Shown one piece after another: positions 1,893 to 6,728 of a stretch of 64,000 bases of DNA. Both the position numbers and the translations under genes were made by a program. The notes under the pieces were generated by a model. It was not told the origin of the DNA. It saw nothing but the letters and a program-made list of their open reading frames with translations, and did not search any database. The DNA is from Chishuiella changwenlii (GTDB lineage Bacteria; Bacteroidota; Bacteroidia; Flavobacteriales; Weeksellaceae): NCBI RefSeq assembly GCF_900142565.1, contig NZ_FRBH01000003.1, forward strand, positions 124,001 through 188,000. Direction: 5' to 3'. Numbering within the stretch: position 1 is the stretch's first letter; each line of letters begins with the position of its first letter.

Positions 1893-2387
1893 ATGAAATA
1901 CTCAAATTTTATTTTTTTCTTGTTAATACCATTTTTTGGTTTTTCACAAGAAGCCCCAAGTTTAACCAAAAACTTAGAATTAAAATTAGCAATTGGCCAG
2001 TATTATGCGAATATCAATTATGAACAACCAATATCTAAAAAAGTGATATGGGATGTTGGAACTTCTCTTAATGGATTTTATTTAGATCAAAATGAGAATA
2101 AAAAAACAAGTTTTGGCTTAACAAGTAATCTTAAATATATCTATAATAGAGAGAGAAGGGCAGAAAAAAATAAAAGTTTAGAAAATAATGCGGGTAACTA
2201 TATTAAAGTAGGAGCAAACTACTATATTAATAACAATGTATTTATTCCTAATTTTATGTGGGGTACTAAAACAAACCTTGATGAAAATTTTTCATTTTTT
2301 GCAGAAGTTGGAATTGCAACTAATAAGGAATTTTTAATACCATTTAATGTAGGTTTCGTGTATAGCATACCTGTATTTAAGAAATAA
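1893..2387 (+). CDS. Small secreted barrel-like protein, tandem copy 2
   Basis: A 164-residue paralogue of the gene at 1319, with the same signal peptide (MKYSNFIFFLLIPFFGFSQ) and the same C-terminal strand YSIPVFKK. Shared blocks include NYEQPISKKVI, FGLTSN and YIYNRE. Divergence is concentrated around mature residues 15-60, with conservative changes elsewhere, as expected for two functional copies. It lies 79 bases after copy 1, preceded by the same short leader. The region downstream (2428-2634) repeats the non-coding cassette found upstream of copy 1. Function unknown; an outer-membrane or surface location is inferred from the signal peptide and strand pattern only. Confidence 0.75.
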   Translation: MKYSNFIFFLLIPFFGFSQEAPSLTKNLELKLAIGQYYANINYEQPISKKVIWDVGTSLNGFYLDQNENKKTSFGLTSNLKYIYNRERRAEKNKSLENNAGNYIKVGANYYINNNVFIPNFMWGTKTNLDENFSFFAEVGIATNKEFLIPFNVGFVYSIPVFKK

Positions 2388-2672: not shown

Positions 2673-3863
2673 TTAATGTTCCTCAATATATCTTGGTTTA
2701 GCAGCTTTTCTTCCGAAGACTGTCATTATAATAATCATTACAATTAAAAAATAAAAAGAGCTTTGCCATGAACTATCCCAATCATGTAAAACTCCAAAAA
2801 TAGGAGGTCCAAAAGCAGCAATTAAATAACCTACAGATTGTGCTTTACCAGAAATTTTAATCGTTCCATGCATTGTTTTACTTTTAAGAGAGAAAAATAA
2901 GATAGAAAGACTAAAAGCTAATCCACTTGAAGCTCCAATTAAAACTGCGGCTAAATAAATGAATTGTGCTTTAAAAAAGAATAAGACTGTTATTCCAGTA
3001 AACATTAAAAATCCAACACTATATACCATCCATTTTTGATCCTGAATTTTGGTTGCTATAATAGGACTAATAAACATAACTGGTAGCATAGATAGTTGAA
3101 TAACTAAAAGAACCAATCCTGTTTGTTCTTTAACCATACCATAATCAAGTAAAACGATTGGTAGCAAAGCGACTAAACAGTAATATACCAAAGATTGTAT
3201 TCCCATAAAAATACTAATATACCAAGCTTGTTTAGAGCGAAAGACATTAAAGCTATTTGTTGGTGCCTCTATTGTCGTTTTATTTTTAGTTTTTTTCTTT
3301 CCTATAAGTGTATCTGCACTTACAGCAATAAGTGCAAGTATAGCCCAAACAATCCATATAGATAAAGATCCTTTCCATTGCATATTTGTCCATTTTCCAA
3401 TAGCAATACTAAAACCCGAAGCTAGAGCAGCAACTAAATTCATCGCTACAGAAAAGATACCTGTAACTAGTCCAATTTTTTCGGGAAATATATTTTTTAT
3501 GTAAGCAGGAGTTGTAACATTCCCAATGCAAATCCCCAAACCAATTAATAAGGAACCTATGTATAACATTGTTATATTTCCATAAACTCTTAAATAAAGA
3601 CCTATTATAAGAAATAAAAGCGAATAGATTAAAGTATAATGAATGTTAGATTTGATAGCAATTTTACTAACCAATACAGAACAACTTGCAAATACGATTA
3701 ATGGAATAGAAGTAAGTAAACTACCTTCAAAATTATTTAAATTAAATACAGCTATAATTTCACTTAATACAGGACTAACTGAAGTAATAGGAGAACGTAA
3801 GCCTCCACCAACTAATATAACGACTACAATACTAAGTATAGATATTTTAACTTTATTACTCAT
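2673..3863 (-). CDS. MFS transporter, CynX/NimT-like
   Basis: A 396-residue inner-membrane protein with about 12 hydrophobic segments. The first segment ends GGGLRSPITSVSPVLSEI (about residues 19-36), matching the NLRPxxTSVGP signature of the CynX/NimT (cyanate / 2-nitroimidazole) branch of the major facilitator superfamily. Substrates in this branch are small anions, nitroimidazoles or amino-acid-like compounds; the substrate here is unknown. It is the last gene of a three-gene operon, starting 7 bases after the stop of the DapB-like gene. The transported compound is therefore probably the substrate or product of the two upstream enzymes. Confidence 0.85.
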   Translation of the reverse strand: MSNKVKISILSIVVVILVGGGLRSPITSVSPVLSEIIAVFNLNNFEGSLLTSIPLIVFASCSVLVSKIAIKSNIHYTLIYSLLFLIIGLYLRVYGNITMLYIGSLLIGLGICIGNVTTPAYIKNIFPEKIGLVTGIFSVAMNLVAALASGFSIAIGKWTNMQWKGSLSIWIVWAILALIAVSADTLIGKKKTKNKTTIEAPTNSFNVFRSKQAWYISIFMGIQSLVYYCLVALLPIVLLDYGMVKEQTGLVLLVIQLSMLPVMFISPIIATKIQDQKWMVYSVGFLMFTGITVLFFFKAQFIYLAAVLIGASSGLAFSLSILFFSLKSKTMHGTIKISGKAQSVGYLIAAFGPPIFGVLHDWDSSWQSSFYFLIVMIIIMTVFGRKAAKPRYIEEH

Positions 3864-3870
3864 TTTTCTT

Positions 3871-4671
3871 TTATAAATCCATTACTGTATCTAAACCTCT
3901 TTTTAATCCTTTAAAACTGTTTACTTTTTCAATAGCAAGTATAACACCATTAACATAAGGTTCTGCTCCATTTCCTGCATCATGTCTTAAAATTAATTTT
4001 TCATCTTGCATACCAAAAATAGCTTCAATACCTAATACGTGACCAGGAAGTCTTACCGAATGTACTTGTACATCATCTATAGTTGCACCGCGAGTTTCTT
4101 TTACTCCAATCGTATCTTCGATAGGTACTTCTATAGTAGATTTTTGTACAGCAGATAAACGATGAGCTAGTTCTGCAACAGAACCACTTGGAGCGTCTAC
4201 CTTATTTTGACTTGCGTAATCTATAAGTTCATAATTAGGGATGTATTTTGCTGCAATAGCTGCGAATTTAAATAATAATACTGCCGTAATCGCAAAGTTA
4301 CCAGCAGCAAGTACAGAAGCATTATTTTTATTCGCAATAGATTCTATTTCATTATAATCTTCATTTGATAATCCAGATGTACCGATAATAACATTTTTTC
4401 CTTTTTCTAAAGCAGTAATAATATTTTTTTTAGCAATATCTGGTTTAGTGAATTCAACTAAAACATCAAAATCAATTTTTTCTAATGCATTATCTATCGT
4501 GTCAAACAAAGGAATAGTAGCATTTTCTATTTGTAAAATATCAGCTAAGTTTTTTCCTTTATTAGAGCGTGATAATCCTCCAATCAATTGCATTCCGTCA
4601 TGATTAAAAATTCCTTTACTAATTGCAGAACCTGCCCATCCGGTAGCTCCTGCGACAAATACTTTTATCAT
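3871..4671 (-). CDS. DapB-like dihydrodipicolinate-reductase-family oxidoreductase, non-canonical active site
   Basis: A 266-residue protein with an N-terminal Rossmann fold, starting VFVAGATGWAG where canonical DapB has GxxGRMG. DapB landmarks follow: VEFTKP (about residue 95), VIIGTSG (about 114) and DAPSG at about 180. Canonical DapB has the catalytic HH in EAHHRHKVDAPSG. Here the equivalent stretch is DYASQNKVDAPSG, so the lysine and the substrate-phosphate-like loop remain but both histidines are gone. Flavobacteria also normally carry a shorter, separate DapB for lysine synthesis. Reduction of another cyclic or linear imine is therefore more likely than lysine biosynthesis; 2,4-diaminopentanoate dehydrogenase is a known DapB relative with another substrate. 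It sits 21 bases after the flavodoxin-RidA gene. Confidence 0.75.
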   Translation of the reverse strand: MIKVFVAGATGWAGSAISKGIFNHDGMQLIGGLSRSNKGKNLADILQIENATIPLFDTIDNALEKIDFDVLVEFTKPDIAKKNIITALEKGKNVIIGTSGLSNEDYNEIESIANKNNASVLAAGNFAITAVLLFKFAAIAAKYIPNYELIDYASQNKVDAPSGSVAELAHRLSAVQKSTIEVPIEDTIGVKETRGATIDDVQVHSVRLPGHVLGIEAIFGMQDEKLILRHDAGNGAEPYVNGVILAIEKVNSFKGLKRGLDTVMDL

Positions 4672-4692: not shown

Positions 4693-5844
4693 TTATTCAA
4701 TTTCAAAAATAGCAGAGATAGAAACCGAAGAGCCAACTGGTAATGAATATGCTCCTTGTGTATTTCTTGTATGTTTACCTTTTTCTCCAAATATTTCTAC
4801 TGTAAGATCAGATGCTGTATTCATAAGATCTGCATGTTTAGTAAAGCTGTCTACCGTATTAAACGTTCCTATAAGTTGTACACATTGTTTTACTCGATTA
4901 AGATCACCTCCAGTTGCTTCTTTTAATATAGAAATGATATTTAACATGGTTACTCTTGTAGCTTCTTTTACTTGTTCTTCGTTTACATCAATACCTAGTT
5001 TTCCCGGATTTACAATTTTTCCATCTTTTAAAGCTACTTGATTGATGTATACTAAATTACCTGATTTTTTGAAAAGTTGATAATTTCCAACAGGTTGAGG
5101 TAAAGAAGGTAATTCTATATTCTTTTGTTTTAGAATCTGATTAATATCGATTTTACTTTCTTTAATAATTGTTTTATTATCATTTTCTATCACTTTGTTT
5201 TTTCTAAGAGCTAAAGCAACTTTTGCAAACTTTTTACCTTGTAATTCGGCTAAATAACGCTCACTTTTACTCGGTCTTTCTACATTGTTTAATGATACGA
5301 GACTTGTTGTTCCTAATACAGCGTTTCCTTGCGGAATTGTTTTATCAATATTTTCCATTCCGCTAATTCCATTGGGTACTAAAATCATTCCATGAACAGC
5401 AAGACTATTCCAAAAAGATTGTAGAGCAAGCTCTTTTCCGGCTCCGCTTCCAGCAGACATAAAAACTGTTGCAGGTGTACCTTCTAATGCATGTTTTGAC
5501 CACAGATTAGTTGTTTTTGCTAAAAATTCGCTCATACCTGTACTAATATTACCAAAATAAATAGGTGAACCAAAAGCAATACCATCATAGGTAATTAATT
5601 CTTCTACGCTTGCAATGGGAATATTTTTTAGTTTAGGATTGTCAGATTTTTTAACTTGTTTAATAATTGCTTCAACATTCTTGTAACTCTCTATTCCTTT
5701 CTTTACTTCTTTAGCTAACTCATACGTTCCACCATTATCTGAATGGATAAGCACTAAAACTTTTGCTGATTGTTCTTGTGCAGTAACATTACAAGTTGTA
5801 ACGAATAAAATAAAAGCTGTTAAAAAGCTATAAAATCTTTTCAT
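4693..5844 (-). CDS. Exported WrbA-like flavodoxin fused to a RidA-family domain
   Basis: A 383-residue two-domain protein. Residues 1-23 form a signal peptide (hydrophobic core then NVTAQEQ). Residues about 27-205 are a WrbA-type flavodoxin: FMN loop HSDNGGTYELA, then GSPIYFGNISTGMSEFL and SAGSGAGKELALQSFW, matching GTPTRFGNM and SSTGTGGGQE of WrbA quinone reductases. Residues about 235-383 are a RidA/YjgF domain of the long cd02199-like type: PVGNYQLFKKSGNLVYINQV, then GDLNRVKQCVQL and HTRNTQGAYSLPVG. The last of these keeps the arginine that binds the substrate carboxylate. RidA proteins hydrolyse reactive enamines/imines; WrbA reduces quinones. No downstream Met could start a cytosolic form of the flavodoxin, so export seems real. 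It is first gene of the operon with the DapB-like enzyme and MFS transporter. Confidence 0.8.
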   Translation of the reverse strand: MKRFYSFLTAFILFVTTCNVTAQEQSAKVLVLIHSDNGGTYELAKEVKKGIESYKNVEAIIKQVKKSDNPKLKNIPIASVEELITYDGIAFGSPIYFGNISTGMSEFLAKTTNLWSKHALEGTPATVFMSAGSGAGKELALQSFWNSLAVHGMILVPNGISGMENIDKTIPQGNAVLGTTSLVSLNNVERPSKSERYLAELQGKKFAKVALALRKNKVIENDNKTIIKESKIDINQILKQKNIELPSLPQPVGNYQLFKKSGNLVYINQVALKDGKIVNPGKLGIDVNEEQVKEATRVTMLNIISILKEATGGDLNRVKQCVQLIGTFNTVDSFTKHADLMNTASDLTVEIFGEKGKHTRNTQGAYSLPVGSSVSISAIFEIE

Positions 5845-5869: not shown

Positions 5870-5901
5870 CAAAATTAGTAATGTCGTTTTTATTATATTT
5901 G
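5870..5901. promoter_or_regulatory. Overlapping divergent promoters of the RidA operon and the AraC gene
   Basis: The 68-bp intergenic region holds TATATTTG at 5894-5901 on the plus strand, 11 nt before the araC-type ATG. It also holds CAAAATTA at 5870-5877, which reads TAATTTTG on the minus strand. Both are exact TANNTTTG -7 elements. The closeness of the two promoters allows one regulator site to control both directions. The AraC transcript would have an almost leaderless start. Confidence 0.6.
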
Positions 5902-5912
5902 CCAAAAAGTAT

Positions 5913-6728
5913 ATGCAAAACGACAAGGTGAAATGTGGTTTAACAGAAATTAAAGAAGGAAAGTATATTGATGATATTCCTATAGATGCCTATGTTTGGT
6001 TCGAAGAAAATTGGGAACACGATGAATATGAGCATAAACACACTCGTTATCAATTAACTTATGTCGCAGAAGGATACCAATATTTTCATATTGAAAAGAA
6101 GATATATTTGGTTCCACAAAATCATATTATTTGGATACCTACAGGCAAAGAACATCGTACAACTTCGGAAGCAAAAATGGTTCACCTTATGGTGGTACTT
6201 TTTAATTCTGTTCCCGATGATGATTTTTATAAAAATGTACATGTTTCTCTTGCACCAAGTGTTTTAAAAGAAATGCTTTTATATACCGCAAAATGGAATA
6301 AATTATTAGTTGAAGATAAAGAACAACAGCTTTTTTTAAAAGCAATGCTTCATAGTTTACCTAACTTTTGTGAAGAGAATAATGGTTTACAAATACCTGT
6401 ACCTACAGATAGTCGCTTAATACCAATTTGTAATTATATTAATACGAATTACAGATATAGTTTTGATAGTGATGATTTGGCTACAAAAGCAAAAATGTCT
6501 GTTCGCACATTACAGAGAATATTTAAACATGAAACGGGTATAACATTACAAAAGTATGTGCAATTAATTCGAATTTTGAAGAGTATAGAATTAATAGATA
6601 GTCAGCAATATACATTAAGTGAAATTGCATATCAAGTAGGTTATCAAAGTCTTTCTGCTTTTACGTCTTCTTATTCATCGATAATGAAAACAAAACCTAA
6701 ATTGAAGAAGGATATACTTAAAAAATAA
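5913..6728 (+). CDS. AraC-family transcriptional regulator
   Basis: A 271-residue cytosolic regulator. An N-terminal cupin-like sensing domain (about 20-150; HKHTRYQLTYV and HIIWIPTGKEHRT) is followed by a C-terminal double helix-turn-helix of AraC type (about 170-270). Recognisable parts are LATKAKMSVRTLQRIFKHET and LSEIAYQVGYQSLSAFTSSY. It is divergent from the flavodoxin-RidA / DapB-like / MFS operon across 68 bp, so it very likely regulates that operon in response to the substrate bound by its cupin domain. The start at 5913 lies 11 nt after an exact TANNTTTG element. Confidence 0.9.
   Translation: MQNDKVKCGLTEIKEGKYIDDIPIDAYVWFEENWEHDEYEHKHTRYQLTYVAEGYQYFHIEKKIYLVPQNHIIWIPTGKEHRTTSEAKMVHLMVVLFNSVPDDDFYKNVHVSLAPSVLKEMLLYTAKWNKLLVEDKEQQLFLKAMLHSLPNFCEENNGLQIPVPTDSRLIPICNYINTNYRYSFDSDDLATKAKMSVRTLQRIFKHETGITLQKYVQLIRILKSIELIDSQQYTLSEIAYQVGYQSLSAFTSSYSSIMKTKPKLKKDILKK

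Follow-up and report, generated by a model that had tools for sequence, protein, structure and literature searches.

E. coli WrbA is an NAD(P)H:quinone oxidoreductase with a flavodoxin fold. Each of its active sites is built by three subunits (PMC3430622), so assembly matters, and modelling points to His133 as a key residue of the quinone site (PMC12247152). Among Rid proteins, a conserved arginine defines the imine-hydrolyzing subfamilies (PMC4433059), and imine deamination in vitro is documented for two Rid1 proteins, PA0814 and ACIAD3089 (PMC5619798); the literature that we consulted names no natural substrate for a Rid1 protein. Flavodoxin-type proteins outside the cytosol tend to carry covalent flavin: the extracytosolic flavodoxins studied so far bear signs of flavinylation, and holding FMN non-covalently outside the cytoplasm is unusual (PMC11334425). 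Finally, in E. coli, a 2-nitroimidazole exporter (NimT) and its AraC-family repressor (NimR) are encoded by the divergent genes nimR-nimT (PMC8249747).

We analyzed a stretch of 64,000 nucleotides from Chishuiella changwenlii (the window). At 4693..5844 on the minus strand, it encodes a 383-residue protein in which a WrbA-type flavodoxin, predicted to be exported, is joined to a Rid1 domain. Both domains are of known kinds; the novelty is the exported fusion together with its regulatory circuit. We found no earlier description of the fusion in the open-access literature. With a regulator, an operator, and an exporter beside it, this conserved exported fusion offers a concrete way to approach the natural role of a Rid domain and the question of how free FMN could serve a protein exported by Sec.

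Read from 5844 to 4693, the fusion gene has 383 codons, begins with ATG, and contains no internal stops. Profiles, PDB matches, a structural model, and the alignment all place a WrbA-like flavodoxin domain at residues 27–214 (5203..5766, minus). Within it, Pfam's FMN_red (PF03358) matches residues 28–164 (E = 2e-9), and two NCBIfam models of WrbA match residues 27–214 (E = 3e-33 and 2e-28). The scores lie below the curated equivalog cut-offs (99.7 vs. 132.5 bits for TIGR01755 and 115.3 vs. 141 for PRK03767). A linker at residues 215–241 (5122..5202, minus; low model confidence at 218–230) leads to the Rid1-type domain at residues 242–383 (4696..5121, minus), which is supported by structure matches and by Pfam's YjgF_endoribonc (PF14588; residues 242–372, E = 1e-18, 67.8 bits vs. 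a cut-off of 35). The protein's relatives in the PDB are E. coli WrbA (over residues 27–213) and the PF14588 protein 3d01 (over residues 236–383). An AlphaFold2 model from a 42-sequence alignment (mean pLDDT of 79, pTM of 0.61) recovered both the WrbA-type flavodoxin fold and the Rid fold: with Foldseek and VIA-align, residues 26–216 matched PnpB and WrbA with Z of about 25, and residues 232–383 matched Rid structures with Z of 21–24.

The best VIA-align match of the flavodoxin domain is the WrbA-like protein PnpB (4laf, Z = 25.7). PnpB is cytosolic, and unlike the fusion, its solved chain has neither a Rid domain nor a signal peptide. E. coli WrbA (3b6i, 2r96) is 36–38% identical and shares the fold, the FMN loops, and Trp98, but it is not exported or fused to a Rid domain, and the fusion has a shorter insert. 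The Rid domain shares its fold and an invariant arginine with PA0814, ACIAD3089, Atu1372 (3d01), and SO_1960 (2otm), and PA0814 and ACIAD3089 are its relatives; unlike the fusion, all four are stand-alone proteins. We found no other homologue of WrbA in the whole genome of C. changwenlii. The genome also contains three stand-alone genes of the Rid family.

The preliminary description of this locus held that the protein is exported, and not by Tat, and the alignment of 85 homologues agrees. Residues 1–22 (5779..5844, minus) form a predicted signal peptide. Residue 22 is alanine in 82 of the 85 sequences and glycine in the other 3, and the residue right after the predicted SPase I site, Gln23, is glutamine in all 85. 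Glutamine after the cleavage site is the Q-rule of the Bacteroidetes for Sec/SPI substrates (PMC5837995). Because the fusion sequences follow this rule and contain no twin-arginine motif and no lipobox, export by Sec is most likely. (The missing motifs led us to reject the Tat pathway and export as a lipoprotein.) One homologue, at locus L068, lacks a signal-peptide start in its ORF call.

The FMN loops were also correctly described as retained. The phosphate loop (S35, D36, and G38–Y41), the G92-S-P-x-Y-F-G-N-I-S-T loop (G92–P94 and Y96–T102), and the S-A-G-S-G loop (G132–G134) are invariant or nearly so in the 85 homologues. It had further been suggested that the protein acquires FMN as Na-NQR-type systems do, which implies covalent flavinylation. 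We searched for D-x-x-[ST]-[GAS]-[AGS]-[ST], which we take to be the form of the flavinylation motif used by ApbE, and it is absent from all 85 homologues. So covalent, Na-NQR-like FMN is unlikely on sequence grounds, and we rejected it as a candidate. In this respect, the fusion differs from the ApbE-flavinylated FMN_red and Flavodoxin_4 proteins, which have the same type of domain outside the cytosol and for which a Rid domain is not mentioned (PMC11334425). An apbE gene is present elsewhere in the genome.

The part of the site that handles quinones in WrbA is changed. The equivalent of Trp98 is present in all 85 homologues, but the position of His133 is valine in all 85 (Val150 in the window's copy), and the arginine of WrbA's PTRFGN is tyrosine. 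His133 is kept in the WrbA proteins that we compared and in yeast Pst2p. Given this altered site, and with no NAD(P)H to be expected beyond the cytoplasm, the fusion is unlikely to work as WrbA ordinarily does, and a reduction of quinones by NAD(P)H is doubtful.

In the Rid domain, the substrate arginine had been noted within HTRNTQG. This arginine, Arg360 (4765..4767, minus), is invariant in the 85 homologues, and it aligns with the PAR arginine of the genome's own canonical RidA; it is the equivalent of RidA's Arg105. The active site is not fully retained in the window's copy: at the position of Glu120 of E. coli TdcF/RidA, it has Ser375 (4720..4722, minus), a change that the preliminary description did not mention. 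This position is Glu in 75 of the homologues, Ser in 9, and Gly in 1. The coupled motif HTRNT...SSVSI marks a clade of 10 members (the nine with Ser and the one with Gly), while the other 75 are HAR-type sequences with Glu. PA0814, ACIAD3089, and 3d01 also keep the glutamate. Ser375 does not disprove imine hydrolysis, because changing this Glu to Ala in Salmonella RidA had little effect on activity (PMC4433059).

A gene for an AraC-family regulator (5913..6728, plus strand; AraC_binding cupin and HTH_18 domains) is divergent to the fusion gene, with 68 nucleotides between them. This pairing recurs at 63 or more of the 80 loci. Between the two genes, the alignment predicts a conserved 27-bp operator, TTTTTGGCAAATATAATAAAAACGACA (5882..5908, minus). 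Intergenic TTTTTGGCAAAnnTAATAAAAACGnCA, followed by a -7 box of the type TAnnTTTG (which we take to be the consensus for Bacteroidota), varies hardly at all among the Flavobacteriia, Sphingobacteriia, and Chitinophagia. In the window, TAATTTTG (5870..5877, minus) matches this box for the fusion gene, and TATATTTG (5894..5901, plus), which lies within the operator, is a candidate -7 box for the AraC gene. In loci from Elizabethkingia and Sphingobacterium where AraC is not adjacent, the operator is degenerate, with TGTCGTTTT at its left. Allowing up to 3 mismatches, we found no second copy of the operator in the genome of C. changwenlii, so the regulon there seems to be the fusion locus alone.

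The same operator faces a gene for a CynX/NimT transporter, with no fusion, at four loci from Empedobacter (L116–L119, in genomes G002, G003, G007, and G009). Three of these have an adjacent paralogue of AraC that is 61–63% identical to the window's regulator; L118 has no AraC gene nearby. Six additional genomes, among them Elizabethkingia, Chryseobacterium, Sphingobacterium, and Myroides, contain more distant AraC-CynX pairs, and four of these have a degenerate operator. We considered whether the regulators of fusions and of exporters form two clades, but in the tree, the exporter regulators from Empedobacter nest among the fusion regulators. That one operator precedes both the fusion and the exporter points to a common control system, and this predicted shared control of the fusion and an exporter-like gene is the strongest clue to function. 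The preliminary description of the fusion did not include the regulator, the operator, or the exporter.

In the window, the fusion is followed by two genes on the same strand. The first (3871..4671, minus; 21 nucleotides downstream) encodes a DapB-like reductase. It scores above the curated cut-off for DapB, but DapB's His-His motif is replaced (DYASQNKVDAPSGS instead of the EIHHTQKLDAPSGT of the genome's second, canonical DapB), and it is probably not an enzyme of the lysine pathway. The second (2673..3863, minus; 7 nucleotides downstream of the DapB-like gene) encodes an MFS transporter of the CynX/NimT family that is 30% identical to E. coli NimT and scores under the cut-off of TIGR00896. 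The window's module thus appears to resemble E. coli NimR-NimT with an exported enzyme added: the divergent layout of AraC and CynX/NimT is alike, and NimR has weak local similarity to the window's regulator, but the fusion is the first gene of the operon, and there is a DapB-like gene as well. At six loci from other genera (Flavobacterium microcysteis, Sphingobacterium psychroaquaticum, Chitinophaga dinghuensis, and three from Chryseobacterium), the gene right after the fusion is either the transporter or the DapB-like one. We rejected a universal operon of fusion, DapB-like gene, and CynX, as most loci from Chryseobacterium have other genes downstream. In many copies from Chryseobacterium (such as L020:9339-12421), a MocR-type regulator, a cupin, and an aldolase of the DHDPS family follow the fusion.

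We propose, as the account with the best support, that the fusion provides an exported enzyme for an inducible response to small molecules, one that at other loci has just an exporter. The divergent AraC-type regulator would sense a toxicant and act via the conserved operator, inducing the fusion and, in C. changwenlii, the cytosolic DapB-like reductase and the NimT-like exporter. Once exported from the cytoplasm, the flavodoxin domain would hold FMN non-covalently and carry out a two-electron step on an electrophile, and the Rid1 domain would hydrolyze this compound, or its product, in the imine form. For instance, Rid might convert a quinone-imine to a quinone, which the flavodoxin might reduce to a hydroquinone. 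The likely toxicants would be quinoid, nitro, or imine-type compounds. Our best reading, then, is an inducible and mobile module that detoxifies imine- or quinoid-type toxicants outside the cytoplasm. The sequence itself shows the fusion, its export signal, the FMN loops, the Rid arginine, the operator, and the control shared with the exporter; we infer the chemistry, including which class of substrate is attacked, which way the redox step runs, what donates the electrons (NAD(P)H is an improbable donor), and how the domains are coupled. We are far surer of export and of the shared regulation than of this chemistry. That the fusion combines a flavin step with imine hydrolysis in an inducible, AraC-controlled detoxification of a small molecule is possible, at somewhat less than an even chance.

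Several observations weigh against detoxification. No electron donor is evident where NAD(P)H is not expected. In most Chryseobacterium loci, neither the exporter nor the DapB-like gene is adjacent. His133 and the PTRFGN arginine of the flavodoxin and the glutamate of the Rid domain have been replaced, and non-covalent FMN would be unusual. Also, the tetramer of WrbA and the trimer of Rid must be reconciled in one protein. It is rather improbable that the fusion represents an undescribed class of periplasmic enzyme, in which flavin redox chemistry and imine hydrolysis occur on one chain, with non-covalent FMN and a donor other than NAD(P)H, within a mobile AraC-controlled module that has a NimT-like exporter.

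We also considered that the FMN domain might dehydrogenate an extracellular amine, with O2 or the respiratory chain as the electron acceptor, while the Rid domain hydrolyzes the resulting imine to a carbonyl compound and ammonia, for use as nutrients. This would not require NAD(P)H and would fit the invariance of Arg360. Also, Rid genes often cluster with genes for flavin-dependent amine oxidases, and Rid proteins speed the hydrolysis of the imines that these oxidases form (PMC4433059). However, flavodoxins of the WrbA/FMN_red type reduce quinones and related compounds and do not have an amine-oxidase fold, and regulation ties the fusion to an exporter-like family, so we think that this alternative is unlikely.

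Or, catalysis might have been lost in one or both domains, and the fusion might sequester flavin, quinones, or other small ligands. The valine at the position of His133 and the serine or glycine in the 10-member Rid clade would be explained, as would the missing flavinylation motif. But the FMN loops and Arg360 are conserved far beyond the needs of loose binding, and the loss of the Rid glutamate has little effect in Salmonella (PMC4433059). We consider binding without turnover to be quite unlikely.

The copy from Mesonia (L084:6376-11271) lies in a stress-type neighborhood, flanked by genes for DUF417 (presumably RclC-like), CMD, and DoxX proteins and by two other AraC genes. This raises the idea of an envelope guardian against reactive chlorine or other oxidants, with a Rid domain that is activated by chlorination, as is reported for other Rid proteins, and a flavodoxin that repairs damage or scavenges oxidants. 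A chlorination-dependent function is described for the Rid protein YabJ (PMC6435465). However, this neighborhood is seen at one locus only, and the fusion's common partners are AraC and CynX/NimT, which makes a guardian very improbable.

A frameshift, an assembly artefact, or a fortuitous ORF has a negligible chance of explaining the fusion: we found nothing in its favor, the two domains are modelled confidently, and 84 other sequences, which come from independent genomes, have the same architecture without a break in the reading frame. A search for the same combination of domains, as the preliminary description had advised, found a single open frame at 80 loci in our collection of genome contigs and in three further genomes of Empedobacter, which bears out a genuine fusion of a WrbA-type flavodoxin with a RidA-type domain. 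The proteins from the 80 loci are 63–77% identical to the window's. The fusion is thus present in at least 80 genome contigs from four families of Bacteroidota (the genera are Chryseobacterium, Elizabethkingia, Empedobacter, Flavobacterium, Myroides, Tenacibaculum, Maribacter, Mesonia, Psychroserpens, Sphingobacterium, and Chitinophaga) and on a plasmid from Sphingobium.

Its distribution is patchy. The fusion is present in 4 of the 14 genomes of its own genus (the three others are Empedobacter) and, counting C. changwenlii itself, in 6 of 395 evenly drawn genomes of Bacteroidota. In the protein tree, the clade that contains the window's copy (support 100/99) mixes Weeksellaceae, Flavobacteriaceae, Sphingobacteriaceae, and Chitinophagaceae, which fits horizontal transfer. 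One fusion-AraC pair from Empedobacter (L009:1-13001) is found among genes for a relaxase, MobC, a TraG-type coupling protein, and ParA, and is probably within a conjugative element. Our search of viral contigs found no relative of the fusion. Among plasmids, the sole full-length homologue is on pYGP1 from Sphingobium (58% identical). It is annotated merely as "NAD(P)H:quinone oxidoreductase," a label that can conceal both an export signal and a further catalytic domain. The plasmid copy (L091:6213-9609) lies downstream of an SDR oxidoreductase and upstream of a DMT transporter, and it has a regulator named GcvA in place of AraC.

We also noticed that the window contains, at 1289-1813 and 1893-2387 (both on the plus strand), tandem genes for very similar secreted proteins of 164–174 amino acids (MKYSNFIFFLLIP...), which apparently arose by a recent duplication.
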